13,192 bases of DNA from Candidatus Zixiibacteriota bacterium (GTDB taxonomy: Bacteria > Zixibacteria > MSB-5A5 > GN15 > JACZUZ01): the NCBI GenBank assembly GCA_022563625.1, contig JADFNA010000009.1, positions 1 to 13,192 on the forward strand, written 5' to 3'. The notes under the pieces were generated by a model that saw only the letters and a program-made list of their open reading frames with translations, searched no databases and was not told the DNA's origin. How positions within the stretch are numbered: the first letter of the stretch is position 1; each line of letters starts with the position of its first letter. This document shows positions 1 to 13,192 of this stretch, piece by piece. A program made the position numbers and the translations under genes.

Positions 1-2
1 AG

Positions 3-437
3 GCTGATCAGTTCAGCTCTGAGACCAGACTGCCGGTTTACGTGCACGGCGACATAGCCAAAATTAACTTTGAACATTTAGGAAAGCTCGACTGCATGGT
101 CGGCGGTCCGCCCTGTCAGGATTTTTCTATTACGAGAGGAAAAGGAGAACGAAAAGGAATTGAAGTGTCAAGGGGAAAACTTTACTCGCATTTTGTTAGA
201 GCTCTGGCGAGAACGCAGCCGAAAGTTTTTTTCTTTGAAAATGTTCCGGGTTTGATCAGCGCAAACAAGGCAACGATAAAGACCATGAAATCAGAGGCGT
301 CCATCTGCCCCGAGCCCGCCAGCACAGTCGTTCCGGCAAAATACAGCAGAAAAATTCCGACCGCAGAAGCCAGTGTGTCGTTGATTGGTGAGTTCAGATG
401 TGTAATGCGTGTCATGCGCAGCAGCGCCCGGAAATAG
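3..437 (+). pseudogene. DNA (cytosine-5-)methyltransferase, internal fragment
   Basis: The reading frame is open from the left edge, so the gene starts outside the window. The text shows the C5-methyltransferase hallmarks: a GDI element, the catalytic motif IV as GGPPCQDFS (about bases 99-125) and motif VI as FENVPGLISANK (about 234-269). The Cys of PPC is the nucleophile that attacks C6 of cytosine and the ENV Glu assists; the family methylates DNA, usually in restriction-modification or as an orphan enzyme. Motif I (SAM binding) lies off the left edge. Family similarity stops near base 270. The remaining codons to the stop at 437 are merely the opposite strand of the ABC exporter gene, so motifs VIII-X and the target-recognition domain are missing. 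Whether it is a real broken gene or an assembly join cannot be told from the sequence alone. Confidence 0.85.
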
Positions 438-1243
438 CGCTGTGTCGCCCGGGAGAACTTTTCTTTTTCTTTGGCTTCGGCGCCGAATGCTTTGACAATG
501 CGAAAATTGGACAGGTTTTCTTCCAGTGTCGAGGTGACATCTTCCATGCGCTCCTGTGAGCGTGTCGAATACTTGCGGATTTTCTTGCCGATGAAATAGA
601 TGAAGATAAACAGCAGGGGCAATGACAACGCCGCGATCAGTGTCAGCTTCCAGCTCAGCAGTATCAGAAAGCTGACCAGCAAAGCGGCCAGGGTGAAATC
701 CGCAACCAGGTGGTTGAAACCAAGATCAAGCGAGTGATTGAGAATCATAACGTCATTGGTAACGCGCGACATCAAAGCTCCCGTGCGCTCCATATGAAAG
801 TGATCAAACGACAGGTCCTGATATTTGTTAAATAAACGATTGCGCAGATCGCGCACCAGCGCCTGCTGGGCGAAGGCCATGGTAAACCCCTGCAGATAAT
901 TGAACCCGTTTTTCCCGACGACAATCACAATCACCAGCGCGCAGAAATTAAACAATCGAGAAATCGGCGTTGGCGCATCCACCAGACTTTGGATAAAGCC
1001 CTTGATCGCCTCCTTCGCAGAGGAAAGGGCGCCATCAGCATACGGCAACGCCGGCGTGTCTGCGCCCCCGATCTGCGTCTCGGTTAGCGAAAACACGGCC
1101 ATCAACAGCGGCCCGATCATCCAGATCAACGCCGCCGAGAAAAACGCATACATCGCCGCCGAGCCGGAGGCCAGGACCAGCCGCACCCAGTAAGGCCTGA
1201 GTATCCCCAGCGTACGCAGATATATGTTTGTTGGTTTATCCAT
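182..1243 (-). CDS. ABC exporter (MsbA-like), transmembrane half only, truncated
   Basis: This is the membrane domain of an ABC-type exporter resembling MsbA lipid/lipid A flippases. It has about six hydrophobic helices: TM1 around residues 20-50, TM2 98-118, TM3 177-197, TM4 200-220, TM5 289-309, TM6 318-331. Typical exporter text includes LSFDHFHMERTGALMSRVTNDV (the first coupling region) and the segment reading STLEENLSNFRIVKAFGAE. Family similarity runs to about residue 331 (LFALIKP, near base 249). The last ~22 residues come from the antisense of the methyltransferase fragment, so the linker and the entire nucleotide-binding domain (Walker A/B, signature) are absent. I chose the ATG at 1243 (MDKPTNIYL), because it begins at the usual point before the first elbow helix; a GTG at 1276 adds 11 residues. 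Neither has a clear Shine-Dalgarno. It is the last gene of the leftward cluster, about 100 bp after the lipoprotein gene. As it stands it could not hydrolyse ATP. Confidence 0.85.
   Translation of the reverse strand: MDKPTNIYLRTLGILRPYWVRLVLASGSAAMYAFFSAALIWMIGPLLMAVFSLTETQIGGADTPALPYADGALSSAKEAIKGFIQSLVDAPTPISRLFNFCALVIVIVVGKNGFNYLQGFTMAFAQQALVRDLRNRLFNKYQDLSFDHFHMERTGALMSRVTNDVMILNHSLDLGFNHLVADFTLAALLVSFLILLSWKLTLIAALSLPLLFIFIYFIGKKIRKYSTRSQERMEDVTSTLEENLSNFRIVKAFGAEAKEKEKFSRATQRYFRALLRMTRITHLNSPINDTLASAVGIFLLYFAGTTVLAGSGQMDASDFMVFIVALFALIKPGTFSKKKTFGCVLARALTKCE
248..269. other. Junction of two half-genes (22-bp shared segment)
   Basis: This 22-base segment reads sensibly in both genes: PGLISANK of the methyltransferase on the + strand and LFALIKP of the ABC exporter on the - strand. 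Left of it only the methyltransferase makes family sense, and right of it only the exporter does. The breakpoint must lie in or beside it. A short shared word at a join is what microhomology-driven rearrangement leaves, and also what a short-k-mer assembly chimera leaves. Confidence 0.65.
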
Positions 1244-1344
1244 AACGGTCTTTACCCGAAACAGGGAACATAACACAAAAATCTACGAATACAGCACGAA
1301 TACGATACGATTACGGGATGGCAGTCAGCGTCGAAACCGAACTT

Positions 1345-2043
1345 TTACCAATCAAGTCTGAGCGCGTCACCGGGGATATCTAGATTGAAGCGCCTCAGAT
1401 CAAATTCGCGGGCCAAACGGATTGTCCGCCGTTTGGCTTTGATGACGCTCTTACCATCCTTACCCCTGTATTCGAACTTCTTCAGGTAGAATCTCCCCGC
1501 CCCTCCAGGAGTGTCAAAAGTTAATTTTAGCGGACCCGGACAGTTTCCCAATATCAACTCGGCCTCAAAACGCCTGTCAGATTCCTGAGTTACCGTCAAT
1601 CCTTCAATTAACCGAACCCGTTCAATGTCTCCCGAAAACAGAGCGGACAGAGAGGACTGCAGGGGACCATCCTCCAGGCAACCGGCGTCGGAAATTCTGT
1701 CAAGGCGGCCTGCATAGTATTCATTTTCTGTGGGAAAGTAGAACAGCGCCGAGTCCGGGCGCCAGACCCCACGGCCCACACCTTTCCCCAGATAGGCGCG
1801 GCCGGTAATCAGCGCTATGGTGTCGGCGAAATAAATATCCATGCGCACCGTTCGGCGCGATTTGCGGTCGCGTACTTTCATGTCGAACAGGTATGCATCG
1901 ACCAGGACTTTGTCGCCTCGGACTACACCCGGACGCTCTGAGACAGAGCCTGCGGATGTTGATTTTCTGCTCCCCGGACAACCGAACAGCGCTAGTCCGG
2001 CGAGCGCCAGAGACAACATTATGACCGCGCGTCGGAGTGCCAT
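1345..2043 (-). CDS. Putative lipoprotein, possibly LolA-like/DUF4292-like
   Basis: A 232-residue exported protein. The N-terminus is a lipoprotein signal peptide: positive start MALRR, hydrophobic stretch to residue 20, and a lipobox LFGC with Cys22 as the lipidated residue, followed by the polar linker PGSRKSTSAGS. The body is rich in short alternating strands (for example LVDAYLFDMKV, VRMDIYFADTIALITG, SALFYFPTENEYYAG). It has two Cys downstream (CLEDG, NCPGP) that could pair. The layout, with a strand-rich body and a line describing a surface that handles lipoprotein or lipid, recalls the DUF4292/LolA-like fold, but this is a weak resemblance and function is not established. The start ATG has a GGAG about 11 bases upstream. 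It begins 23 bp after the stop of the membrane protease gene and precedes the ABC exporter, so it probably belongs to an envelope-related operon. Confidence 0.6.
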   Translation of the reverse strand: MALRRAVIMLSLALAGLALFGCPGSRKSTSAGSVSERPGVVRGDKVLVDAYLFDMKVRDRKSRRTVRMDIYFADTIALITGRAYLGKGVGRGVWRPDSALFYFPTENEYYAGRLDRISDAGCLEDGPLQSSLSALFSGDIERVRLIEGLTVTQESDRRFEAELILGNCPGPLKLTFDTPGGAGRFYLKKFEYRGKDGKSVIKAKRRTIRLAREFDLRRFNLDIPGDALRLDW

Positions 2044-2066
2044 CGAGAATTCGCTCCAGCCTGGTC

Positions 2067-2699
2067 CTAGTACATCAAGAATGAGGCAATCGGATGCACC
2101 ACCGAGCTTAACAGCATGTGCAGAATATTCGGAAATCCGGGAATCAGGCGCGGAACGATTATCAATCCGATCAGGATCATCGGCGCGATACGTTCAAAAC
2201 GCGCCAGCGGCTCTTCATATTCCTGAGGCAGTATTGAGCGCAGCATGTGTGATCCGTCGAGCGGGAAAAGCGGGATCATATTGAAGACGGCCAGCACGAG
2301 ATTGATTAAAACGCCGAAGTAGAGCGCGTTGGCCAGATAGCCATCCGGTTCAAGATTCAACACACGCAACAACATGGCGGCGACAAGCGCCTGCAAAATG
2401 TTCGAGATCGGTCCGGCGAATGAAATCCAGAAATCAGCCACACGATAGTTTTTGACATTCATCAGATTAACCGGAACCGGTTTGGCCCAGCCAAAAGTAA
2501 ACTGGCTCATGACCATCACAATGCTTCCCATCAGATCCAGATGGGCCAGCGGGTTGAGCGTCAGACGGCCCATGCGGGCGGCGGTGTCATCGCCGAATTT
2601 GAGCGCAGACCAAGCGTGTGAGAATTCATGCACACTCAGGGCGAAGACTATAACCGGCCCGGCGACTGCGGCCCGCTGAAAAAACTCTGCGTCAAACAT
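2067..2699 (-). CDS. Site-2 protease family (M50) membrane metalloprotease
   Basis: A 210-residue intramembrane zinc protease of the compact S2P/YwhC-like group. Zinc ligands are visible: HEFSH (His24, Glu25, His28) in the first membrane segment, and the PLDG motif (Asp148) within FNMIPLFPLDGS in a later one. Other conserved family text is NPLAHLDLMGS, FGWAKPVPVN and FAGPISN. There are about five to six hydrophobic segments and no PDZ domain, so it is shorter than RseP (about 450 residues) and normal for the minimal class. Such enzymes cut membrane-embedded substrates; the substrate here is unknown. The ATG at 2699 fits the family N-terminus, though no clear Shine-Dalgarno precedes it. It starts 36 bp after the glutamate dehydrogenase stop and ends 23 bp before the lipoprotein start, which suggests cotranscription. 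Confidence 0.9.
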   Translation of the reverse strand: MFDAEFFQRAAVAGPVIVFALSVHEFSHAWSALKFGDDTAARMGRLTLNPLAHLDLMGSIVMVMSQFTFGWAKPVPVNLMNVKNYRVADFWISFAGPISNILQALVAAMLLRVLNLEPDGYLANALYFGVLINLVLAVFNMIPLFPLDGSHMLRSILPQEYEEPLARFERIAPMILIGLIIVPRLIPGFPNILHMLLSSVVHPIASFLMY

Positions 2700-2735
2700 A
2701 TGTTATCATACCGGTAAGGGCTGAGCCAGGACGAA

Positions 2736-4004
2736 TCAGGCGTAAATGCCCCGCATCTCCAGAATTGATACCACGCGGTGAATCGCCAGCATATAGGCCG
2801 CCAGGCGCAGAGAGACCCCGTGCGCCTGCGAGTGATTGTACACATCGTAAAACGCCTCGACCATTTTCTTCTCCAGCCGCAGATTGACCTCGGGTTCGTC
2901 CCAGAAATAGCCCATGTTGTCCTGCACCCATTCAAAATAAGAGACAATCACGCCTCCGGCGTTACACAGAATGTCGGGAACAACAATGACGCCTTTCTTT
3001 TCGAGAATGACATCCGCTTCCGGCGTTGTCGGGCCGTTGGCGCCCTCGCCGATTATCCTGGCCTTAATCCTGCGTGCGTTCTTGCCGGTGATGACGTTCT
3101 CCAGCGCCGCCGGGATTAGCACATCCACTTTGCAGAAAAGCACATCTTCCCGCCCGCAGCGCTTTGCGCCGCGAAATCCGGGGACCTTCTTTTTTGACTC
3201 TACGTGTTTGATGAGTTTGGGAATGTCAATTCCGTCGGGATTATGTATGGCGCCATACTGGTCGGAAACATGCGTGATTTTGGCGCCTTCTTCGGAAAGC
3301 AGCAGGGCAGCGATGCTGCCGACATTGCCAAATCCCTGCACGGAGACTGTCACCTCCGCCAGATCCAGATCAATGCTCTTGCATATCTCGCGCACGGAGA
3401 TCATAACTCCGCGCCCGGTTGCTTCCACGCGCCCCAGTGAACCGCCGATCTCCAAAGGCTTGCCGGTCACAACCCCGGGGGCCGTATGGCCTTTGTGCAT
3501 CGAATAGGTGTCCATGATCCAGGCCATAGTCTGCGAGTCAGTGCCGACATCCGGCGCCGGAATGTCCTTTTGTGAGCCGAATAGATCTATCAGATCTGCG
3601 GTATAGCGCCGGGTCAGGCGGGCCAGTTCTTTTTTGGAGAGTTTGGAAGGGTCGCAGATGATACCGCCTTTGCCGCCGCCGAACGGAATCTTGGCCACGG
3701 CGCATTTCCAGGTCATCCACGAAGCCAGAGCCTGCACCTCGTCCAGGGTGACATTGGGGTGATAGCGAATGCCGCCTTTGGCCGGGCCGCGCACCACGGA
3801 ATGCTGGACCCGATAGCCGGTGAACATGCGGAATGTACCGTCGTCCATTTGCACCGGCAGCTTCACAATAGTTGAACGGCGCGGCTCTTTGATGAATTCC
3901 AAAAGTTCCGGATCGACTTTCATTTTGGCGGCGGCTTTGTCGAGTATTTTGATAACATTGCCGAAGGCGGAAATGGGAATGGTGGTGGACTTCAGGTGTT
4001 TCAT
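2736..4004 (-). CDS. gdhA: Glutamate dehydrogenase (Glu/Leu/Phe/Val dehydrogenase family)
   Basis: A cytoplasmic enzyme interconverting glutamate and 2-oxoglutarate plus ammonia with NAD(P)H, linking nitrogen and carbon metabolism. Its 422 residues match the usual length of bacterial hexameric enzymes such as RocG/GudB. Conserved sites: Lys76 in RGPAKGGIR, Lys100 in TWKCAVA, catalytic Lys112 in PFGGGKGG, and Asp152 in APDVGTD. The Rossmann dinucleotide motif GFGNVG is at 224-229, followed by VSDQYGAI, and the C-terminal part has [13 protein letters not shown] and [12 protein letters not shown]. The Asp at the end of the second Rossmann strand (D248) does not settle NAD versus NADP use. A related amino-acid dehydrogenase (Leu/Phe/Val) is possible but the text favours glutamate. 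It is the first gene of the leftward cluster, and its promoter should lie in the 223 bp before 4228. No strong Shine-Dalgarno precedes the ATG. Confidence 0.92.
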
Positions 4005-4170
4005 AGTTGGATTGATCTGTGTTTCAAATGATTCAAACCTTGAAATTCAGCGGGGGCGCTGCACTGTACTGTCTATTCTGAATGGAATCTCTTGAGTGTA
4101 AGTGTTTTCGGGTAGGAGAACCGTCTCTCTGCGTGCATTAATCAACCGAAAGGCCACAGGCGCCAGACGT

Positions 4171-4239
4171 TTGCTCAGATCACCTTGCTCAAGTCACCGT
4201 TTCAAGCCACAGGCTTAATTTGCAGGCTTAATTCGCAGG
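4171..4239. repeat. Two adjacent short tandem duplications
   Basis: TTGCTCAGATCACC (4171-4184) is followed directly by TTGCTCAAGTCACC (4185-4198), a 14-bp unit with two mismatches. Twelve bases on, a 13-bp unit CAGGCTTAATTTG / CAGGCTTAATTCG runs 4210-4235 with a further partial copy CAGG. The second array contains the stop codon of the glycosylase gene, so unit changes would move or duplicate that stop. A GCCACAGGC word also occurs twice (near 4153 and 4206). These look like slippage products between the glycosylase gene and the glutamate dehydrogenase start. Confidence 0.6.
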
Positions 4240-4845
4240 TGTCGTTCTATTCGCTCGCGGGCGAGGTTTCCTTTGAGTAGATATATATGGCGAATCCGGG
4301 TCGAAAAAGCGCCAGAGTCGGTCCGTTGCGGCGGAAATTCCGATGCGTCCACTGGTGGCAATCGTTCCGGGCCGCAGATTTCGGTCAGCAAGATACAGAG
4401 CGTTATCAGTCAAATCAAGGCCGTTGTCGGACCTGTCAATGCCAAGCGCCAGGCATAGTTTGCCCGGCCCGTCCGGCCGGTGGCGCCGGCCGCTCTTGGT
4501 GTCATTTTCAAACACACCTTCCAGCGGCTCAGCCGCCCGAATCAGGACCGCAGCCGGGAAACCGTCCTTTTCAGTGACAATATTCAGACAGTTATATACC
4601 CCATAGATGAGGTAAACATAAGCCAGACCGGGGCGGCCGTACATAATCCGATTGCGGGAAGTGGGACCGCAGGCGGCATGGCTGGCCGGATCGTCCTCTC
4701 CGATATATGCTTCCACCTCGACAATCCTCACGGCCCGCTGTTTGGCGTTCGAGCGCCGGTCAACCAACACCATGCCAATCAACTCACGGGCCACCAGCAG
4801 CGTCGGCCGACGGTAGAATCCTAATTTCAGTTTTCTTTCTGGCAT
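4228..4845 (-). CDS. mpg: DNA-3-methyladenine glycosylase (AAG/MPG type)
   Basis: A base-excision repair enzyme that removes alkylated purines (3-methyladenine, hypoxanthine and similar) from DNA by flipping the base out. Its 205 residues are the normal bacterial size. Family landmarks: VEVEAYIGEDDPASHA near residues 42-57, where Glu45 matches the catalytic Glu125 and Tyr47 the intercalating-pocket Tyr127 of human AAG. Next come TSRNRIMYGRPGLAYVYLIYG, AAVLIRAAEP and the helix GPGKLCLALGID. The ATG at 4845 is preferred because GGAG sits 8 bases upstream; a GTG at 4854 would add three residues and lose that spacing. The C-terminal tail (RKPRPRANRTTPAN) is basic, and its last codons run into a short tandem repeat. 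It is upstream of the glutamate dehydrogenase gene on the same strand but separated by 223 bp, so it is probably a separate unit. Confidence 0.92.
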   Translation of the reverse strand: MPERKLKLGFYRRPTLLVARELIGMVLVDRRSNAKQRAVRIVEVEAYIGEDDPASHAACGPTSRNRIMYGRPGLAYVYLIYGVYNCLNIVTEKDGFPAAVLIRAAEPLEGVFENDTKSGRRHRPDGPGKLCLALGIDRSDNGLDLTDNALYLADRNLRPGTIATSGRIGISAATDRLWRFFDPDSPYISTQRKPRPRANRTTPAN

Positions 4846-5202
4846 TTCATGCACTCCGCAGGATTGACGCTAAGAGTTTCCGGCACAGTATGTTGACCAT
4901 GATGTTCATTCCCGGACACGCTGTCAAGAGTCCGCGTAATCGAACCTTATCAGGATAATTCCACAATTCGTATGACGAAGTGTCCGTTCACCCCGGCTTT
5001 GCGACCGCTGGTCATTTACCCTGCCTGTGAAATGGAACCTGAAGCGCCGCATTACGTATGCTTGAGGAGATGTTCGAGCCGGGCTTATTGCGGTAAAAGT
5101 GAGGAAGCCTTGATCGCGGCATGCCAACCATTAATCTGATAAACAACACCTCTTCCATATGGGACCGAATTCTAAAGCGCCACACTCTGAGGGGAGCGAG
5201 TT
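4846..5202. promoter_or_regulatory. Divergent intergenic region (glycosylase / DUF5916 gene)
   Basis: This 357-bp gap separates two genes read away from each other, so it must hold both promoters. On the + side a strong Shine-Dalgarno GGGGAG (from 5191) precedes the GTG start at 5203 by about 7 bases. Only weak promoter-like words are present (for example TTGATC near 5110 with TAATCT 16 bases on), so I do not place a -35/-10 pair. A small perfect palindrome TTATC-AG-GATAA is near 4950. No convincing gene was found in either strand. Confidence 0.5.
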
Positions 5203-7923
5203 GTGAAATATATGTTCATGCGGGGATTATTTAGGGTAGCCTTCGCGCTTTTTGTTGCCGGGTTAGTTGGGCTCATATCACATGCCCAGCCCTTGGGCGA
5301 CGGCCCGCGCAAAGAAATCAGGGCCAGCAAGATCAACAGCGAAGGAATTAAACTCGACGGCAAACTGGATGACGCCATCTGGGCCAGGGCCCAGTTTGTC
5401 AATGGGTTTTTGCAAAAGGAACCGGACCAGGGTGAACAGCCGAGTGACTCAATGGAGGTCGCCGTCACCTATGATGAGGCGGCGGTGTATATCGGAGCGC
5501 GCATGTATTCAAAAAACCCCGGCGCCCTCAGACAGCATTTGGACCGCCGCGATTCTCAGGGACCGGCCGAACAGTTCATCGTGATGCTGGACACCTATCT
5601 GGACCGCCGCACGGCGTATGTCTTCGGTGTCAACACCGCCGGCGTGCGCTTTGAAAGATATCATGCGCAAGACAACGAGTTTAGCCGGGACTATTCATTC
5701 AATCCGGTCTGGGAAGCGCGGACGTCTCTTGATGAGAAAAGCTGGACCGCCGAAATGCGTATCCCGTTTTCACAGCTTCGTTTTACCGATAAAGAGAAAC
5801 AAGTCTGGGGGGTGAATTTCAACCGCTGGATTCCCGCAGACAACGAAGATGTATTCTGGGTCTATGTCCCGCGCGAAGAATCTGGCTATTCCTCCCGTTT
5901 TGGCAATCTTGTCGGGATTGAAAACGTCAAACCGTCGCGACGTCTCGAGCTTTTGCCCTATCTGGCCAGTGACGGCAGTTTCACCGGCGATTACGATGTC
6001 GCCGATCCGTTTAATGACGGCAGCAATATCACTTCTCGCCTGGGAGGAGATTTGAAAGTCGGCCTGGGGCCGAATCTGACTCTGGAATCCACTTTCAATC
6101 CGGATTTCGGCCAGGTCGAAGCGGATGCCGCCGAAGTTAATCTGAGCGCATTTGAAACTTTTTTCCCCGAGCGAAGGGCGTTTTTTACCGAAGGCAGCCA
6201 GCTCTTCAACGCCGAGGGCGCCAGGTATTTTTACTCCCGCAGAATCGGCGCCCGGCCGCATGGCGAATCTGTAGGTGATTTCGTCTCGCGTCCTAATAAT
6301 ACGACAATTCTCGGGGCCGCGAAGTTGACCGGCCGCTTGAGTTCGGGTTTATCTCTTGGAGTTCTCGCGGCGGTTACAGACCAGGAGTTCTCCAAAGGCT
6401 TCATCTCTGCAAACAATTCAACTGTTGAAACAAAGATCGAACCGCGCACTTTCTTTGGCGTGACCCGTCTGCAAAAGGAATTCGGAAAAGACGCCTCGAC
6501 GGTCGGGATCATCCTGACCGCTGTCGAAAGAGATTTCGATGAAAATGACCCGCTGGCCGACATACTGCGCAAGCGAGCCTATAGCGGAGGCGGTGACTTC
6601 AAACTCCGCTTTGCAGGCGGGAAATACGACATCGTGGGAAATGTCGGATTCAGCCATATTGAAGGGACGCCCGAGGTCATCCGCAGCGCCCAGGAGTCCA
6701 GCGCTCGATATTTCCAACGGCCGGACGCAGACTACGTCAATTTCGATCCAACGCGCACCAGCCTGACCGGCTACAAGCTCGGACTGCGCGGCGGCAAATG
6801 GAGCGGCAAACACTGGCTCTTCGGCGGCGGTTTCAGCGCTGAATCTCCGGAATTTGAACTCAATGACGCAGGTACTCTCGGTTCCGCGGACGATATTGAC
6901 TACTGGGGATGGGTCGGTTATCAGGAAACTAATCCGGGCAAAATCTTCCGCAGATATAGCATATTTACAAACTGGGACGCCGGCTCAAACTTTGGCAATG
7001 TAAATACATATAGCGGATGGAACGTAAACGGTTCAATGACCTGGAAAAACTTCTGGAACAGCTGGTGGGGCATCGACCGTGACAACCGTGGCGTCTCTGA
7101 CTCCCGCACTCGCGGCGGCCCAGACGTCGGTAAAGAATCCGGCTGGACTGTCTGGTTGGGAGTTGATAACGGTTTTTTCCGCAACACTTTCAAGTATGGC
7201 ATAAGCGGCCTGGCCGCCAATGACGAACTGGGTGGATACCTCTACAACTTCAGCATCAATCTCTCTACACGAGTAGGCAATCGTCTGTCACTATCCGCCA
7301 GACCGTTTTACCAACGCGAAGAACAACCTCGCCAGTATGTTGCGACTTTGGGCGACGACGCCAGCGAGGCGATGTTTGTGGCAGGAGGAGCGAATACTTT
7401 CGGCCGGCGTTACTTTTTCTCTCGCATAGCGCGCAGCACTATCTCAATGCGGATCCGGGCAAACTATTTCTTCACGCCGGATTTGAGCCTTGAGTTGTAT
7501 GCCGAACCGTTTATCTCCAACGGACGCTTCTTTGAAAACGGACAGACGCCGTTTGAACGTTCACTTGACCTGACGCAGACCGGAACTGACGGCACAATGA
7601 TCATCGACAATCCGAATGGCGACGGCACATTCCAAGTGCTTGATTCCAGCGGCGCCCTTATTGCCGACGCTGACGGCAACACATCTTTTGGCAGCGCAAA
7701 CTTCACCAGCCTGTCGTTTCGCAGCAATCTTGTCATGCGCTGGGAGTTTTTTCCCGGCAGTACGGCATTTCTGGTCTGGCAGCGCAATCTTTCCGGCGGC
7801 CTGACTGACAACAATGCGCGCGCCGGACGCAATGCGCGTTTTGGCAATCTGTTTGACTCATTCAGCGGAGAGGGCTCAGACTTTTTCGCCCTCAAAATCG
7901 CCTACTGGATTCCGGTTTCGTAG
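5203..7923 (+). CDS. Secreted CBM9-like / DUF5916 outer-membrane barrel protein
   Basis: A 906-residue exported protein. Residues 1-29 form a signal peptide (basic start, hydrophobic core, SHAQ cleavage area). Residues ~45-230 match the carbohydrate-binding family 9-like domain that opens DUF5916 proteins: IKLDGKLDDAIWARA, VAVTYDEAAVYIGARMY, FNPVWEARTSLDEKSWTAEM, IPFSQLRF. From ~245 on comes the DUF5916 body, with the family text NPDFGQVEADAAEVNLSAFETFFPERRAFFTEGSQLF, followed by long amphipathic, aromatic-rich strands ending in an exposed barrel-like C-terminus. Such proteins are thought to sit in the outer membrane; substrate and activity are unknown, and carbohydrate binding is only suggested by the CBM9-like part. 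The GTG start is fixed by a GGGGAG 7 bases upstream, and later ATGs lack one. It stands alone, with a terminator hairpin about 30 bp after the stop. Confidence 0.88.
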   Translation: MKYMFMRGLFRVAFALFVAGLVGLISHAQPLGDGPRKEIRASKINSEGIKLDGKLDDAIWARAQFVNGFLQKEPDQGEQPSDSMEVAVTYDEAAVYIGARMYSKNPGALRQHLDRRDSQGPAEQFIVMLDTYLDRRTAYVFGVNTAGVRFERYHAQDNEFSRDYSFNPVWEARTSLDEKSWTAEMRIPFSQLRFTDKEKQVWGVNFNRWIPADNEDVFWVYVPREESGYSSRFGNLVGIENVKPSRRLELLPYLASDGSFTGDYDVADPFNDGSNITSRLGGDLKVGLGPNLTLESTFNPDFGQVEADAAEVNLSAFETFFPERRAFFTEGSQLFNAEGARYFYSRRIGARPHGESVGDFVSRPNNTTILGAAKLTGRLSSGLSLGVLAAVTDQEFSKGFISANNSTVETKIEPRTFFGVTRLQKEFGKDASTVGIILTAVERDFDENDPLADILRKRAYSGGGDFKLRFAGGKYDIVGNVGFSHIEGTPEVIRSAQESSARYFQRPDADYVNFDPTRTSLTGYKLGLRGGKWSGKHWLFGGGFSAESPEFELNDAGTLGSADDIDYWGWVGYQETNPGKIFRRYSIFTNWDAGSNFGNVNTYSGWNVNGSMTWKNFWNSWWGIDRDNRGVSDSRTRGGPDVGKESGWTVWLGVDNGFFRNTFKYGISGLAANDELGGYLYNFSINLSTRVGNRLSLSARPFYQREEQPRQYVATLGDDASEAMFVAGGANTFGRRYFFSRIARSTISMRIRANYFFTPDLSLELYAEPFISNGRFFENGQTPFERSLDLTQTGTDGTMIIDNPNGDGTFQVLDSSGALIADADGNTSFGSANFTSLSFRSNLVMRWEFFPGSTAFLVWQRNLSGGLTDNNARAGRNARFGNLFDSFSGEGSDFFALKIAYWIPVS

Positions 7924-7952
7924 CGATTTGATCCATACATTTGTGGATGTAC

Positions 7953-7988
7953 AAAAGTCCCCGGTGAATTCAACGCCTAGGACTTTTT
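7953..7988. terminator. Bidirectional rho-independent terminator
   Basis: AAAAGTCC (7953-7960) pairs with GGACTTTT (7980-7987), with a 19-base loop and a run of five T on the + side and four T on the - side. It lies 30 bp after the DUF5916 stop and 65 bp after the serpin stop, between convergent genes, where a shared two-way terminator is expected. The stem is fairly short and the loop long, so strength is uncertain. Confidence 0.5.
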
Positions 7989-8003
7989 GACTAAAATCGG
8001 TAG

Positions 8004-8026
8004 GTCAGGAGGCCTGTCCTCCTGAC
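8004..8026. repeat. GC-rich perfect inverted repeat
   Basis: GTCAGGAGG (8004-8012) and CCTCCTGAC (8018-8026) form a perfect 9-bp stem with a 5-base loop CCTGT. There is no T-run on either side, so it is a poor classical terminator. It could stop readthrough from the serpin side together with the neighbouring hairpin, or be a copy of a dispersed palindromic repeat. Confidence 0.55.
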
Positions 8027-8052
8027 ACATTCCTTAAGCTTATATTACTAAT

Positions 8053-9345
8053 TTATTCTTCCCAGACGGGGCGGGCCACTTTGCCGACAAACATCACTGC
8101 GCCGGATTCCTTCTCCGATATGACAAACACAAACGGTCGGTTGCAGTCTATAAAAGGAGGAAGCGAAGTTGGTCCCCCTATGACCGTAACCGCCGCGGCC
8201 TCGGTACCCTTTTCGTCCACCTGAACAAATGTCTTGTGAATCACGGTGTCGATCCAGACTCCACCGCCTTCAAACATGTTGCTGAAGTCGGCTGCCCCCG
8301 ACTGAAAGGCGATATTCATCCCCATAGAGGCCAGAATGTCATCAAGCGCCACTTCATAGCCAAACTTGAACCTGGGCAGTTTCGCTTTAAAACGTCCTGA
8401 CAAAAACTCGGATCGCCATTGGTCCCATTTTTCAACGGTAAATTGCGAAATGAACTGTGTTACAGGTAGTGATGTATCCGGCAGAAAGACTGTCATCCTG
8501 AACCAGCGGTCACCATAAGGGAGTGAAAAGGCCGTGAATTCGTTGTCTTTGACGAGATACGTCACGTCCGGATCGAATCGACCGCTGTCGTCCCGGCGTG
8601 TCCAACTATCGAGCCACATGAAGTCGGCGCTCATGGCGCTGCCATCAGCAAGGTGGAAGGTATCTGCGCGTGTTAGTCTGGTGTCGAAAGGAACGGTCCA
8701 GTCTGCCTTGAAGTAGACGGCGTTAGCGAGTATGTAAACCCAGCTTGGATCGAGCGGAGATTCGAACACCTTCTTGATCTTGCCGTTGGTATTCTCGGAC
8801 ACCCAACTGTTTATTGTGTCGACCGACGACGGATCGGTGAAATCCAGGCCGGAGACCCTGGCGCCAAAAAAAGTCCGGACGATATCAGCGAATTCCGGCA
8901 CAAGCGTTAATCGTGTCGAGTGCCAGACGGCGTTAGCTATGGTGATCGTGACTGTTTGGTCGGCGTTTGTGAGGACGTCGGTCAGGCCTGCGAACGACTC
9001 ATTTACTTGATTGGTTGTTAGATCACCGATTTTGAGAGTTGCGGAAATGGAGTCACGCGTGTCTCCCGCTGCGCCGTTATAGGCCATTGCCAGCGCGTAC
9101 GCCGCCGACATGGGCGAAATGAAGAGGTTGGAGTCGGCCGGTGTCACTGCGGCAATCTTTTCGAAAAGGTCGAATGTGAATTCGTTCGTCGCGGTAACTA
9201 GCCGCCGCTCCGTCGCTGTCAACTCGGATGGTAAACGAATCGGGCTTGGATCGCTGGGCTCGGTGGGCTCGGTCAAACTGGAACAGTGCATTAAAAGGCA
9301 GCAGACAACAATCGACGCCGTAAGAGAAATCCGGTTACAACTCAT
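8053..9345 (-). CDS. Serpin-family protease inhibitor, secreted/putative lipoprotein
   Basis: A 430-residue serpin, which traps target proteases by swinging its cleaved reactive loop into a beta-sheet. Residues 1-20 form an export signal; Cys21 (LMHC, then SSLTEPTEPSDPSP) may be lipidated, though His at -1 makes the lipobox atypical. The serpin body begins near residue 45 (NEFTFDLFEKIA, NLFISPMSAAYALAMAYNGA) and ends with FIDCNRPFVFVI and GAVMFVGKVARP. The hinge EKGTEAAAVT (from 378) has the small residues needed for loop insertion, so it should be inhibitory. Aligned to alpha-1-antitrypsin from the C-terminal side, P1-P1' would be Thr393-Ser394; the loop seems one residue shorter. The ATG at 9345 is chosen for its GAGG 5 bases upstream; a TTG at 9363 is upstream of that site. 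It is transcribed alone from the promoter near 9490. Confidence 0.93.
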   Translation of the reverse strand: MSCNRISLTASIVVCCLLMHCSSLTEPTEPSDPSPIRLPSELTATERRLVTATNEFTFDLFEKIAAVTPADSNLFISPMSAAYALAMAYNGAAGDTRDSISATLKIGDLTTNQVNESFAGLTDVLTNADQTVTITIANAVWHSTRLTLVPEFADIVRTFFGARVSGLDFTDPSSVDTINSWVSENTNGKIKKVFESPLDPSWVYILANAVYFKADWTVPFDTRLTRADTFHLADGSAMSADFMWLDSWTRRDDSGRFDPDVTYLVKDNEFTAFSLPYGDRWFRMTVFLPDTSLPVTQFISQFTVEKWDQWRSEFLSGRFKAKLPRFKFGYEVALDDILASMGMNIAFQSGAADFSNMFEGGGVWIDTVIHKTFVQVDEKGTEAAAVTVIGGPTSLPPFIDCNRPFVFVISEKESGAVMFVGKVARPVWEE

Positions 9346-9473
9346 AGTGTCCTCGTTCTGCAAGAGATTTGATCAACACAGGCTAACTGATATACCTGGA
9401 CATGTGGGTGGCTCACACTGTGCTTTCCCATATGAAGGTTTCAATAACACGATTTATACCTTTCTGTATTATG

Positions 9474-9502
9474 AATATATAAAAACCTGGTCGAATGGTC
9501 AA
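9474..9502 (-). promoter_or_regulatory. Sigma70-type promoter of the serpin gene
   Basis: On the - strand TTGACC (9502-9497) and TATATT (9479-9474) are separated by exactly 17 bases; each hexamer matches the housekeeping consensus at five of six positions. Transcription would begin near 9467 and give a leader of roughly 120 bases before the serpin ATG at 9345. The surrounding sequence is AT-rich, unlike its neighbours. Confidence 0.55.
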
Positions 9503-9564
9503 CAGGAAATCGCCACGAGCGTGTCACGCATGCCAGGGTCGGGTGGCCTGCCTCTATGGGACCT

Positions 9565-9712
9565 GTTGAAAAATCCCTTAATAGTCTTTGCGAGGAGTCC
9601 GCCGCAGGCGGCCGGCGCGGCCCGACACTTCTCTCGGGGGAAAGCATCAAGTCTCACGACGGCAGAGGACGCCGTCGAAGGACCTGACGCAACTGAAATA
9701 GGGTTTATCAAC
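9565..9712. repeat. MITE-like / dispersed repeat element
   Basis: This ~148-bp stretch is bounded by imperfect inverted ends: GTTGAAAAATCCCT on the left and, read from the other strand, GTTGATAAA-CCCT on the right (12 of 14 positions agree with one gap). Inside are a GC-rich word TGCGAGGAGTCCGCCGCAGGCGG and a 7-bp-stem hairpin (9657-9677, CGACGGC/GCCGTCG). A related word CCGCCGCAGAGCGG follows outside at 9733-9746. No target-site duplication is obvious and no protein is encoded. GCGAGGAG plus CCGCCGCAGGCGG words are, as I recall, typical of scattered intergenic repeats in environmental bacteria. Together with the AT-rich promoter region it fills the 457-bp gap 9346-9802. Confidence 0.4.
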
Positions 9713-9802
9713 ACGCCCAGAGGGCTAGAAACCCGCCGCAGAGCGGACGAGCCGCCAGACCTTTCGATATCGCACAGGACGAGTTGGGACACTGGCCGTT
9801 CA

Positions 9803-10630
9803 CTAAGCGCCTTCAATAGCATATAGCTTGCTTCGCACATCCCAGATTCCTACTCCTGAAAGAAGGGCGAGGTTTACGAATAATAGCGGTGCAAAAATGG
9901 GAGCAGCTGTTACAAGATTTCGGATAAATGAAGGCTCCGCCCCGCTGGATACCGCCATCCCGTGAAAATAGAAACCGAGCGCTCCGACAATCATCTGAAG
10001 CGCCAGAACGACAAGGGTGACATCAAGAAACCTCCGCGACACGCTTCCAAAAAATGTAACTAACAAGAATCCAATAGCTATCGCGCTGCTGATAACAGGA
10101 ATCCACTCTGCCCAGTAAAAAAATCCGTTCTGGGCATGATCCAATAGCGCCAGCGCGAAGTTGCCGACAAATCCGCCGAGACCAAAAAATATCAGCCATC
10201 TCCCCCATTCCATTTTTTCGACAGCAATGCTTCTATTTAACAAAAGTAAAAATCCCAGCCCACAGTAGGCCAGCGGGGCAGCGAAAGGAGCTGCGTAAAC
10301 GAGGCTTCGTATAGTCTGCGCTTCAAAAAAGGAGCTGTTCAGATGAAAGATAGCGCCCGCAATGCCGATTGCGATGGAACCGTACCCGACAACGAGGCCG
10401 TTTACCCGCACCCTATGCTCTCTTCTCCGCCAGTTAAGCGCCAATTCGATACACAGAGGAACCGGCGCTGCAATTGAAAAATAAAATGGAATCCATTCGG
10501 CCGGGTGATGGAATGAATTGACGGAATGAGCGATAAAAATATCCAGCGCCAAAAACCCAATATTGACAATGATAAAAACTTCAATGACGAGCAAAAATGA
10601 TATTGCCCTGGAATTAGGATTATCCTTCAT
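9803..10630 (-). CDS. 8-TM membrane protein of two 4-TM repeats, cytochrome partner
   Basis: I do not recognise this 275-residue integral membrane protein. It shows about eight helices (roughly 10-36, 48-66, 76-98, 108-132, 144-166, 177-197, 203-225, 237-262). Its halves are repeats. HSVNSFHHPAEWIP (35-48) matches HAQNGFFYWAEWIP (165-178) without gaps, His96 (AIFHLN) matches His223 (FYFHGM), and IRSLVYAAPFAAPL (107-120) matches IRNLVTAAPIFAPL (236-249). Basic loops (WRRREHRVR, SVSRRF) imply N-in/C-in topology, which puts the shared His, Glu-Trp and Arg residues on the periplasmic face. It starts 7 bp after the stop of the octahaem cytochrome gene with no separate Shine-Dalgarno, so the two are probably translationally coupled. 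Inference: a membrane electron-transfer or quinone-handling partner of that cytochrome, perhaps binding haem b through the paired histidines. This is unproven. Confidence 0.75.
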   Translation of the reverse strand: MKDNPNSRAISFLLVIEVFIIVNIGFLALDIFIAHSVNSFHHPAEWIPFYFSIAAPVPLCIELALNWRRREHRVRVNGLVVGYGSIAIGIAGAIFHLNSSFFEAQTIRSLVYAAPFAAPLAYCGLGFLLLLNRSIAVEKMEWGRWLIFFGLGGFVGNFALALLDHAQNGFFYWAEWIPVISSAIAIGFLLVTFFGSVSRRFLDVTLVVLALQMIVGALGFYFHGMAVSSGAEPSFIRNLVTAAPIFAPLLFVNLALLSGVGIWDVRSKLYAIEGA

Positions 10631-10637
10631 AAATGAT

Positions 10638-11861
10638 CTAATCAGCGCGGAGTTCGCGGGCCATATCTTTCATTTCAACTATGTGAAGCAATAATTCGTA
10701 GTTGCCATGCCACTGCACGAAATCGGCGCCTCCCATGAAAGCGCCGTGCTTGGCGGTCCTTCCATAATAATGCCACATATCAAAAGCCAAGAATTCGATT
10801 GGTTCGTCGAATGGCTCGGGAGTCAACAGGCCTTCCTGGCGAAGTTCAGCAACGAGATCGAGGGCTTCCTGCACTTTCTTGTTGGTTGAATGAAGTACAA
10901 CTTCTGCTTCCTCGTAGAACTTTTCCACCTGCGGCTTCGCGTGACACTTCAGGCAAATATTTTTCATCGCCTCCTGCCCCATTATGTAGTTAGGGCGTTT
11001 CTTGGAGATTGCAGAAAACAACCACCAGGAAAGACGCTCAGTAACATCGTGCGTAACATTCATCCCCTCCAGGCCGCTCATATGGCAGGTTGCACATGTT
11101 GGCACAGACATGTCGCGGGTAGTCAGATTCTTTGGGGAAGCGTTAAGATTCAAAATTGATCGTTGCAAATTGAAGAGCACGCCGTGCTTAGATTCGTTGT
11201 AGATTTCGAGTTGGGAATGGTCCGGCCCCATGTGGCATTGACCACAGGTTTCCGGCTGGCGCGCCAGGGCAATTGATGTTGAATGCCGGGCGTGACAATG
11301 TGTGCAACTGCCTATGCTGCCGTCGGTATTTGGTTTGCCGATTGCATGACAGGACTCGCAGCCTAATTCCAAAACCCCTTCCCATTGGGCGATTGTCAGT
11401 TCATTCGGTGGACGCTTGACCGCTCCTTCGTGGTACTTCTCCGAAAACGCGATTTGTTCCGGTGTGAATGCTTCTTCCCCCCTGACGGCAGCCCAGGCCG
11501 GAGCTGCGTGGCGGCTCTTGAGAAACTGGTCGTATTCGGTAGAGTGGCATTGGGCGCAATTCAAGGCGGTCAGCGTTTTTGCCAGAGTGAATCCGTTGTG
11601 TGTAAATTGTTCTTGTCCAGCCTGCGGATAATGGCAATCATAACATGTAATACCGGCTCTGGCATGAGCGCTCATTGAGAATTGGTGGACAATTGCCGAT
11701 GTTTCCTTGCTGTGGCATCCCGCGCACTTTCCACTGGCGCGGACATATTCCGGCGCTGGTTGTGCTGTTTCAATTGGTGGGCGGGCCCGGTTAATTAGGA
11801 TTGCCGCCACTATCAGAGCGGTTCCAATAAATACAGCTATAAAGACACTTCGAAAAGTCAT
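10638..11861 (-). CDS. Octahaem cytochrome c, hydroxylamine oxidoreductase (HAO)-like
   Basis: A 407-residue periplasmic multihaem cytochrome. Eight CxxCH haem sites occur at 46-50, 73-77, 102-106, 168-172, 186-190, 206-210, 256-260 and 303-307. Residues 6-24 form one membrane helix with no clear cleavage site, so it is probably anchored and faces the periplasm. The C-terminal segment with HGAFMGGADFVQWHG (372-386) resembles the HAO/octahaem nitrogen-cycle cytochromes, whose members oxidise hydroxylamine or reduce nitrite or hydroxylamine. In that family the fourth haem is catalytic, here CESCH. It is shorter than nitrifier HAO (about 570 residues). Whether the Tyr that cross-links haem P460 is present cannot be settled without alignment. 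The ATG at 11861 is chosen because GGAGGTG lies 9 bases upstream; a TTG at 11906 would lie before that site. It heads a two-gene operon with the 8-TM protein. Confidence 0.88.
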   Translation of the reverse strand: MTFRSVFIAVFIGTALIVAAILINRARPPIETAQPAPEYVRASGKCAGCHSKETSAIVHQFSMSAHARAGITCYDCHYPQAGQEQFTHNGFTLAKTLTALNCAQCHSTEYDQFLKSRHAAPAWAAVRGEEAFTPEQIAFSEKYHEGAVKRPPNELTIAQWEGVLELGCESCHAIGKPNTDGSIGSCTHCHARHSTSIALARQPETCGQCHMGPDHSQLEIYNESKHGVLFNLQRSILNLNASPKNLTTRDMSVPTCATCHMSGLEGMNVTHDVTERLSWWLFSAISKKRPNYIMGQEAMKNICLKCHAKPQVEKFYEEAEVVLHSTNKKVQEALDLVAELRQEGLLTPEPFDEPIEFLAFDMWHYYGRTAKHGAFMGGADFVQWHGNYELLLHIVEMKDMARELRAD

Positions 11862-11957
11862 ATCTTGCTTCACCTCCAAAATGCGATACCAGCGGGCGAC
11901 ATCCAATTAATGGCAAAATTATTCACAAGTATTGCTAATACTAATAGGTTAGTTATT

Positions 11958-11984
11958 GTATGTCGGCAAACAAAGTGGACATAC
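11958..11984. promoter_or_regulatory. Candidate operator dyad upstream of the cytochrome operon
   Basis: GTATGTC (11958-11964) and GACATAC (11978-11984) are perfect inverted copies with a 13-base spacer, so the half-site centres are 20 bp apart, about two helical turns. It lies about 97-123 bases before the cytochrome ATG, inside the AT-rich promoter region. That suits binding by a dimeric regulator. It is not the FNR/CRP (TTGAT-N4-ATCAA) pattern, and the regulator is unknown. Confidence 0.4.
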
Positions 11985-12129
11985 TATCGGTATAAAGTAG
12001 TCTACATATGTTTGCGATGCAACAGTTTTCTACCAAGCCCCCATTAGTCGTAACACTTTCTAAGTTAGCTCCACCATCGACACAGTCAAGCGAATACATG
12101 CTATTCCTGTGACGCCCCGGCCGTCGCGG

Positions 12130-12147
12130 CCCGGACATTTGTCCGGG
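12130..12147. repeat. Perfect inverted repeat, hairpin
   Basis: CCCGGACA-TT-TGTCCGGG is a perfect 8-bp stem with a 2-base centre, which as RNA would need a slightly larger loop. On the + side it is followed by TTTCATT and on the - side by GC-rich sequence. The hydrolase gene ends about 285 bases away on the - strand, so a terminator role is doubtful. Confidence 0.45.
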
Positions 12148-12431
12148 TTTCATTCGTGCGGGTTGTGGAGCCTCCGGTTTGCCCCATTCCCGCCTGAGTC
12201 TGCCTATTCACCAAGAAAGCTACAAAACCACACCAGATACACCTGCGAGACATATATGATGAAGAAAGAACTCACAAGCGCCCACAAACACCCTCACTAC
12301 ACCTGCATCCACCACCGTGGAGAGACAACCACACCTCAAAATAATCGAAATATAGAAAACGAACCCAATTTGCCGGAAGGTTTTGCCCCGCTACAATGTA
12401 CGCGCGACTATCTCAATCGAGTGTGACAGCC

Positions 12432-13091
12432 TCAGACGCTGCTGTCTTGCAGTTGCAGCAAAAACGGATTGGTCATGCGTTCACGGCCGACAGTTGTCGC
12501 CGGGCCGTGACCGGGATAGAGAAAGATTTCATCGGGAAGGGTCAGGATTTTTTCGGCGAGGGTACGCATCATTGTCTCATGATCTGCGCCGGGCAGGTCA
12601 GTGCGGCCGATTGAACCCATGAACACAACATCTCCGCAGAACATAATCTTGTCATGCAAGTAACAAATTGAGGCCGGCGAATGTCCGGGTGTCAAGAGAA
12701 TGCTAAAATCAAAACCGGCGATAGTCAGGCTGTCACTGTCATTCAGCAAGTGGTCAGCCGGAGGCGACACTACATGTTCTCCATGCGCTGCGGACAGGTT
12801 TTTGAGCGGATCAGTGAGCAGTTCCTGCTCTCCGTCTCCAATATAAATCGGCAGCTCGAAGCGCTCCTTAATTTCCGCAACGGCGCCGATATGATCTGAG
12901 TGGCCGTGCGTCAGGAGAATTGCTTCCAGCGTAATCCCCAGACTTTCGATACGTGAAATCAGCCTCGGCGCTTCCGCGCCGGGATCGAGGGATCGATCTC
13001 GTTTCTCAAGCGCGCGCTTGGTCTGGCGCGCTGCTTCAACAAGGGATGGGAGCACTTCGTCGCGACGGTGGGAGCGACCGTCTTTGCGCAC
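12432..13091 (-). CDS. Metallo-beta-lactamase-fold hydrolase (glyoxalase II-like), 5'-truncated
   Basis: A zinc hydrolase of the YcbL/GloB-like type, which typically cleaves thioesters such as S-lactoylglutathione in the cytoplasm; the substrate here is unproven. Metal ligands are complete: THGHSDH (His62, His64, Asp66, His67), His137 in TPGHSPAS, Asp154 in FCGDVVF and His195 in YPGHGPAT. The family text GSIGRTDLPGAD and the final NPFL are present. Family similarity begins at DPGAEAPRL (Asp36, near base 12986). The ~35 residues before it, up to the ATG at 13091, are the antisense of a transposase end and do not resemble the expected first beta strands (usually reading like NCYLV...IDPG). About 30 native N-terminal residues are therefore missing, and the start coordinate is only the end of the open frame. 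Confidence 0.85.
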   Translation of the reverse strand: MRKDGRSHRRDEVLPSLVEAARQTKRALEKRDRSLDPGAEAPRLISRIESLGITLEAILLTHGHSDHIGAVAEIKERFELPIYIGDGEQELLTDPLKNLSAAHGEHVVSPPADHLLNDSDSLTIAGFDFSILLTPGHSPASICYLHDKIMFCGDVVFMGSIGRTDLPGADHETMMRTLAEKILTLPDEIFLYPGHGPATTVGRERMTNPFLLQLQDSSV

Positions 13092-13118
13092 AACCTGCTC
13101 AGCCTGGCTCGATGTTGA
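12990..13118 (+). pseudogene. IS transposase, C-terminal fragment
   Basis: On the + strand a short frame reads SFLKRALGLARCFNKGW (13000-13049) and then FVATVGATVFAHNLLSLARC, ending at a TGA (13116-13118). This pattern, a FLKR...GL.RC..KG element followed by a hydrophobic NL..LAR tail, matches the C-terminal end of DDE-type transposases of the IS5/ISNCY kind. Everything upstream (DDE core, N-terminus) is replaced by the hydrolase gene. The flank is more GC-rich than the rest of the window. The 74 bases after the stop may be the IS end, but no inverted repeat can be identified. Family assignment is from recall. Confidence 0.6.
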
Positions 13119-13192
13119 CGTCGGCTCCCGCCAAGCCCGATCGTTCTCTGCCCGTTCAAGCAGCGGTCGAGATCTGCCCGCGCGTCCTTTCC

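Follow-up and report, generated by a model that had tools for sequence, protein, structure and literature searches.

An octahaem cytochrome and an unnamed eight-helix membrane protein as a conserved gene pair in Zixibacteria and other bacterial phyla

From where does an octahaem cytochrome c (OCC) of the HAO/OCC superfamily draw its electrons when the gene beside it encodes a membrane protein devoid of haem motifs? The question is raised by a stretch of 13,192 nucleotides from Candidatus Zixiibacteriota bacterium (assembly GCA_022563625.1, contig JADFNA010000009.1, positions 1 to 13,192 of the forward strand; hereafter the window), in which two genes follow one another on the minus strand. The first, occ (10638..11861), encodes a 407-amino-acid (aa) octahaem cytochrome c with an N-terminal membrane anchor, and the second (9803..10630) encodes a 275-aa protein of eight transmembrane (TM) helices belonging to an unnamed family. 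The gap between them measures 7 base pairs (bp; 10631..10637), an operon-like spacing. A first interpretation made from the letters of the DNA alone (the sequence-only reading) had described an anchored cytochrome with eight CxxCH motifs, a 7-bp gap and an 8-TM protein, and this description was borne out, with the anchor helix at residues 3-26 and eight helices in the membrane protein.

In the hydroxylamine-ubiquinone redox module (HURM), HAO is linked to the quinone pool via a cytochrome of the NapC/NrfH/cM552 kind, and for Nautilia profundicola a reverse-HURM was proposed in which nitrite is converted to hydroxylamine and Hcp then yields ammonium (PMC3701875; this and the other papers below are cited from those parts of their text that were available). 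The present pair resembles these systems (HaoA with a CycB of the NapC/NrfH/cM552 type) in combining an HAO-family octahaem cytochrome with a membrane partner, and departs from them in that a CxxCH-free 8-TM protein stands where the tetrahaem quinol module would be. By a slight balance of the evidence, the pair is probably a quinol-linked reductase of nitrite, nitric oxide (NO) or hydroxylamine, a reverse-HURM variant in which the 8-TM protein would form the quinol side in place of NapC, NrfH or CycB.

Linkage of the two genes and exchange of the membrane partner

Relatives of the membrane protein were sought with its alignment, by way of two conserved peptide patterns, in a single genome of each species, and the best 80 of 126 relatives constitute the loci set; judged by record prefix they represent 77 assemblies (L003/L004, L013/L025 and L043/L052 each share one). 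By open reading frame (ORF) search, the gene immediately upstream, in the same orientation, encodes an OCC in 77/80 loci. In L013, L042 and L081, tblastn reveals OCC sequence that reaches the membrane gene and is cut at or near a contig end, in L013 split over two frames, and with these cases added the two genes adjoin in 80/80 loci. Such adjacency is far beyond chance, and the pair is a unit, shared by numerous unrelated bacteria from soil and marine settings. Ten phyla are represented among the 75 pairs retained for the OCC tree described below, namely Zixibacteria, Fidelibacterota (Marinimicrobia), Planctomycetota, Acidobacteriota, Verrucomicrobiota, Gemmatimonadota, Bacteroidota, Myxococcota, Eiseniibacteriota and Poribacteria.

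The same linkage is evident in 524 genomes of two phyla, which partly overlap the loci set (e.g. L005, L007, L022 and L046): 18 of them carry the membrane protein together with the matching OCC group, in every case as neighbours. Among the 132 Zixibacteria genomes the membrane protein occurs in five, and the matching OCC group, separated by score (748-778 bits vs 331 and below), occurs in the same five and adjacent to it; another 101 genomes lack the membrane protein and have only other OCC-profile matches, none above 331 bits and some of them weak. In the 392 Planctomycetota genomes, drawn from a larger group, with an OCC cut at E<=1e-120 and at most 6 and at most 4 first-look candidates scored per genome, the membrane protein was found in 14 and the OCC group in 13, all 13 as neighbours. 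The 14th match, the only unpaired one, is a 90-bp fragment at a contig end, and no intact solo membrane gene was found in the 524 genomes of Zixibacteria and Planctomycetota. The co-occurrence of the two genes as neighbours, for which the sequence-only reading had asked, holds in 80/80 loci, ten phyla and 18/18 genomes, and in the sets searched the membrane protein is not widespread without the cytochrome, that fragment being the sole exception.

Evolutionary distances of the two proteins also co-vary over the 71 of 80 loci that satisfied length limits (Pearson 0.72, a value reached by 0/999 permutations). The pair generally conserves no third gene, the largest neighbour cluster comprising 9 loci, of which the eight shown are all Poribacteria. 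Carriers of the pair include strain ZRK32, strain ZRK34 and Singulisphaera GP187 (L023, L022 and L037, respectively), and strain ZRK32 has been reported in culture (PMC10945688). Two copies of the pair, one of them followed by a qNOR gene, are present on the Verrucomicrobiota contig CAINLR010000113.1 (L043 and L052). In L002, a second copy of the first 28 OCC residues, i.e. of the anchor, was observed at 1501-1608 (contig C169 of genome G000, 4855-4938), 79% identical, with a stop codon 7 residues on and situated downstream of tRNA-Val and tRNA-Asp genes; it may be a relic or a stray leader duplication.

What occupies the position of the membrane gene next to OCCs outside this clade was assessed for 16 Zixibacteria proteins taken from the top of the score list rather than at random. 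Directly downstream of 8/16, at 6-9 bp, lies a gene for a protein of ~500 aa with five CxxCH motifs, and all 8 of these pentahaem neighbours pass the NapC/NirT cut-off of PF03264. In a tree of 91 OCC sequences of at least 395 aa, one branch (100/100) separates the 75 with an 8-TM partner from the rest, and another (96/82) does the same for the 8 NapC-linked OCCs. The 75 were taken from 78, the window's included, L003, L018 and L025 being left out as cut at contig ends. The tree is midpoint-rooted with its two sides joined by long branches, and it gives no order of partners. Inside the 8-TM clade the phyla are intermingled, with Bacteroidota and Acidobacteriota lying between members of Fidelibacterota, for instance, a pattern that transfer of the module would be expected to leave. 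Since 8/16 outside OCCs carry a NapC/NirT-domain protein at that very position, an exchange of partners is well supported, and the earlier idea that a haem-motif-free protein has replaced the quinone-side module gains support from the same observation. The NapC/NirT/NrfH quinol dehydrogenases are alike to the 8-TM protein in genetic position and unlike it in construction, as they bear c-haems and it has eight TM helices and no CxxCH. The sequence-only reading had also supposed loci without a NapC-type gene, and no other ORF with at least three CxxCH motifs was found in 79/80 locus flanks (at most 8 kb per side and often less; the search was not genome-wide), L057 having a 4-CxxCH ORF 6.2 kb away on the opposite strand.

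The pentahaem genes, of which L087:6465-7967 is an example and which have counterparts in L086, L088, L090, L092, L093, L094 and L096, follow the OCC directly; in their products the NapC/NirT domain spans roughly residues 108-188 and an additional haem region lies towards the C-terminus, possibly constituting a distinct quinol-side module. L085, L089, L091, L095 and L098 belong to another OCC clade with no adjacent NapC-type gene, and in all of these except L085 a secreted protein of 419-455 aa, porin-like by eye, precedes the OCC.

Residues of the octahaem cytochrome

The PF13447 profile scores 91.7 bits on the window OCC vs a curated cut-off of 21.9, and the HAO fold is present in its AlphaFold2 (AF2) model. 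All eight CxxCH motifs are invariant in an alignment of 59 OCC sequences, which, like the alignment of 75 membrane-protein sequences used below, was selected by the analyst from fetched loci and matches. The anchor helix seen in the AF2 model (residues 3-26; 11784..11855, minus strand) is followed by R27 and P28, likewise invariant in the 59 rows. The reading frame is open from a TTG at 11906, and the length of 407 aa applies when it is read from the ATG at 11861. It is not HAO that constitutes the nearest known structure to the model, it is the Ignicoccus hospitalis OCC (IhOCC, PDB 4qo5), which differs in its 521 residues vs 407 and in having PDV where the window's OCC family has an invariant PDH. 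D214-H215 (11217..11222, minus strand; 59/59) align with VDH residues of Nitrosomonas europaea HAO, which have a catalytic role there.

In Hao of the epsilonproteobacterial type, a Trp occupies the position of the HAO cross-link tyrosine and a Met precedes it by 8 residues (Haase et al. 2017, via PMC8940962). Both components of this reductive, eHao-like hallmark are present in the window OCC as M376 (10734..10736, minus strand) and W384 (10710..10712, minus strand), which are spaced by 8 residues and conserved in 59/59 sequences. W384 is assigned to the cross-link position by this Met-8 spacing rule, as a direct alignment with the HAO C-terminus never formed; at the position so inferred, the Tyr that is the hallmark of oxidative HAO and hydrazine dehydrogenase (HDH) is replaced by Trp throughout. 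The key site of the reductive forms has also been described as a His, not a Trp (PMC12758564), and the residue next to W384, H385, is an invariant His in the family. With W384 and its neighbour H385, the site reads as reductive under either published description and under neither as the oxidative Tyr. A Tyr at position 381, found in only 6/59 sequences and three residues ahead of W384, was considered as the cross-link residue and not accepted. By its residues, then, the OCC looks reductive. The sequence-only reading had allowed for reduction or oxidation of nitrite or hydroxylamine; reduction is favoured, and oxidation is disfavoured because of the Trp and Met residues. The likeness to epsilonproteobacterial Hao ends at the membrane, where the partner proposed for that of N. 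profundicola is of the NapC/CycB type (PMC3701875).

The membrane protein and the flanks of the pair

The 275-aa protein has no CxxCH, and its eight long helices are modelled with confidence by AF2 (mean predicted local distance difference test, pLDDT, 92.1; predicted template modelling score, pTM, 0.90). Its halves align with each other as profiles (hhalign probability 98.1, E 6.3e-14, 34% identity over 96 columns), and the model displays 4+4 long helices with a short helix equivalently placed in each half (H100-107 and H235-241); the two halves are copies of one 4-TM unit, duplicated internally. Repeat 1 (residues 1-137; 10220..10630, minus strand) contains D30, H35, E45, H96 and Y112, and repeat 2 (residues 138-275; 9806..10219, minus strand) contains D164, H165, N168, E175 and H223, all conserved in 75/75 sequences. 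Even the most divergent pair (G164; 169 bits for the membrane protein and 534 bits for the OCC) retains all four His, both Asp, E175 and Y112, and differs at E45, replaced by Gln, and at N168, replaced by Asp.

The conserved His, Asp and Glu lie at the ends of TM1, 3, 5 and 7 and at the starts of TM2 and 6. Lys and Arg together average 1.56-3.23 at the predicted inner helix ends and 0.25-1.01 at the outer ends, and by this asymmetry the conserved residues would face the periplasm, where the OCC sits. This His/Asp/Glu cluster could hold haem b, bind quinol or serve another role.

In keeping with its initial description as unrecognised, the membrane protein was assigned to no known family in searches of Pfam, NCBIfam and PDB sequences. 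PF03264 gave no match at E<=1, nor did any cytochrome c assembly family in Pfam, and the quinone-associated NrfD/PsrC, NarI and b561-type families were absent from its matches at E<=1 and from the listed fold matches, an absence that does not rule out membership of them. Weak matches of other family members are few, some of them to transporter families (ZIP, best E 0.0048). The family itself is large and unnamed, with 2,813 matches and no Pfam domain among the 120 listed.

The isolation of the pair from flanking genes, also remarked in the sequence-only reading, is confirmed by its distance from the nearest ORFs with Pfam support. Downstream, at 439 bp and on the same strand, lies a bacterial serpin (8053-9363; PF00079, E 4.3e-96) with a start that appears lipoprotein-like by eye, and upstream, at 570 bp and again on the same strand, a frame of the metallo-beta-lactamase fold (12432-13091), the upstream end of which may by eye be foreign too. 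Shorter overlapping ORFs without support are also listed around the pair. At about 250-275 of the window, an ABC-exporter frame (182-1276, minus strand) and a cytosine methyltransferase-like frame (42-437, plus strand) seem by eye to end together, and this common break may be an assembly junction or an insertion.

Proposed electron path and competing explanations

In the reductase that we favour, the two genes would give rise to one membrane-bound enzyme, its OCC anchored on the periplasmic side by the N-terminal helix that it carries and its 8-TM protein acting as quinol-side partner. The His/Asp/Glu cluster facing the periplasm would be the place of quinol oxidation, with two pseudo-symmetric sites, one per 4-TM repeat, where the His pairs H35/H96 and H165/H223 possibly bind haem b. 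A surface haem of the OCC would receive the electrons and hand them down the haem chain to the catalytic haem, where nitrite, NO or hydroxylamine would be reduced towards ammonium, either to detoxify N-oxides or to dispose of electrons. We infer that the two proteins form a complex, that quinol is oxidised and that electrons cross the 8-TM protein, and likewise any haem b and the substrate.

A suggestive, not general, gene context accompanies this proposal. Hcp (PF03063) is encoded 24-25 bp upstream of the pair in L039 and L066, which recalls the reverse-HURM as do the reductive-type residues; a qNOR-type protein (PF22085 and PF00115) is encoded 130-136 bp downstream in L041, L043 and L054, NnrS (PF05940) 140 bp downstream in L051, and a DGC protein directly after the pair in L066. 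Further on in L043 are genes for a DGC protein, a Crp/Fnr-type regulator and YgbA_NO, with like ORFs by eye in L054. A neighbour in L049 was considered as NnrS-like and dismissed, having no Pfam or NCBIfam match. In nine module-bearing genomes NirK was not found above the cut-off (weak matches in 4), and COX1-family genes occur in 8 of the nine; the three Planctomycetota genomes reached via loci have one COX1-family ORF each, of ~800 aa and ~200 bits, similar to the qNOR of L043 and distant from the pair.

Several observations weigh against a quinol-linked N-oxide reductase. BLAST probes place N-oxide genes next to the pair in only 6/80 loci, and 5 of these come from closely related Verrucomicrobiota. 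Hcp was found in 0/9 module-bearing genomes, so that a complete reverse-HURM with Hcp is not general, and an FNR-type box is not enriched upstream of 73 OCC genes, the window's included (mean shuffled p 0.56). Neither a cofactor nor a quinone site has been demonstrated, and Foldseek of the membrane-protein model against PDB returned nothing at E<=0.001, hence no fold-based support for a quinol dehydrogenase. The other 8/16 outside OCCs have no adjacent NapC-type gene, the rank correlation of the two distance matrices is low at 0.32, and a two-pattern scan restricted to the best 80 of 126 could miss distant members without OCC.

The one-to-one adjacency would equally suit a maturation partner, and as the OCC possesses its own anchor helix with the invariant R27-P28, the 8-TM protein might be a dedicated assembly, haem-handling or anchoring factor that carries no electrons, the OCC being reduced by another periplasmic donor. 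We judge this unlikely, given that Pfam yields no cytochrome c assembly family among the window protein's matches at E<=1, that a NapC/NirT-domain gene takes its position beside half of the 16 outside OCCs and that the eight haem motifs are all of the standard CxxCH kind processed by ordinary c-type maturation. Quite unlikely, in our estimation, is a channel or permease for NO, hydroxylamine or ammonia, as substrate or product, beside the enzyme. The 4+4 repeat architecture of the 8-TM protein, which is common in transporters, would accord with it, as would the hydroxylamine uptake required by the reverse-HURM model (PMC3701875). However, the invariant His and Asp are found where TM1, 3, 5 and 7 are predicted to end at the periplasm and are not distributed through the membrane, the window protein passes no family cut-off and the transporter matches of its relatives are as weak and few as noted.

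The two remaining explanations concern the chemistry. The HAO-family fold, the D214-H215 aligned with N. europaea HAO and a COX1 gene in the four pair-bearing Zixibacteria relatives (86-98% complete) could point to a module that oxidises hydroxylamine (or NO) and delivers electrons to the quinone pool, comparable to the nitrifier HURM; with Trp instead of Tyr at the inferred cross-link position in every sequence, and IhOCC rather than HAO as nearest structure, we regard it as very improbable. That the OCC reduces some other small oxyanion or a metal, its N-oxide neighbours being incidental, would suit the substrate promiscuity known of multihaem reductases and the majority of loci, where no N-oxide gene lies in reach of the probes used; we assign it the slightest likelihood of all. 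Taken together, the sequence-only interpretation is partly supported: none of the three refuting observations that it had named was made in the sets and databases searched, and its coupling to quinone through the 8-TM protein is a putative step.

In nitrifiers, haoA is followed by the gene for HaoB. As to precedents for the present pair, octahaem cytochromes of Phycisphaerae have been termed putative Onr, with a proposed nitrite reductase function, and are said to be encoded by the cultured Poriferisphaera corsica (PMC11266412); they possibly represent the same or a nearby OCC group, and the available text of that paper does not mention an 8-TM partner. No paper naming this partner was found in the titles, abstract openings and passages searched, a search outside which most subscription journals lie. 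The OCC itself represents one group of an already known superfamily, and the new element, not found in print, is the 8-TM partnership.

Tentatively, and with somewhat less confidence than the reductase as such, the 8-TM protein may be the first representative of a new quinol:cytochrome c oxidoreductase class that arose when a 4-TM unit was duplicated (possibly with a bis-His haem b per repeat) and that substitutes for NapC/NrfH. With its octahaem reductase it would make up a portable module of two genes, serving respiration or detoxification, that has spread to ten or more bacterial phyla. If so, partner searches that rely on haem motifs (NapC/NrfH) would overlook a whole class of quinol-linked electron supply for N-oxide reduction, in phyla that include Planctomycetota, Poribacteria, Acidobacteriota and Marinimicrobia, and the electron donor of reductive HAOs without an adjacent NapC would become a two-gene question, to be addressed heterologously or in a cultured host.
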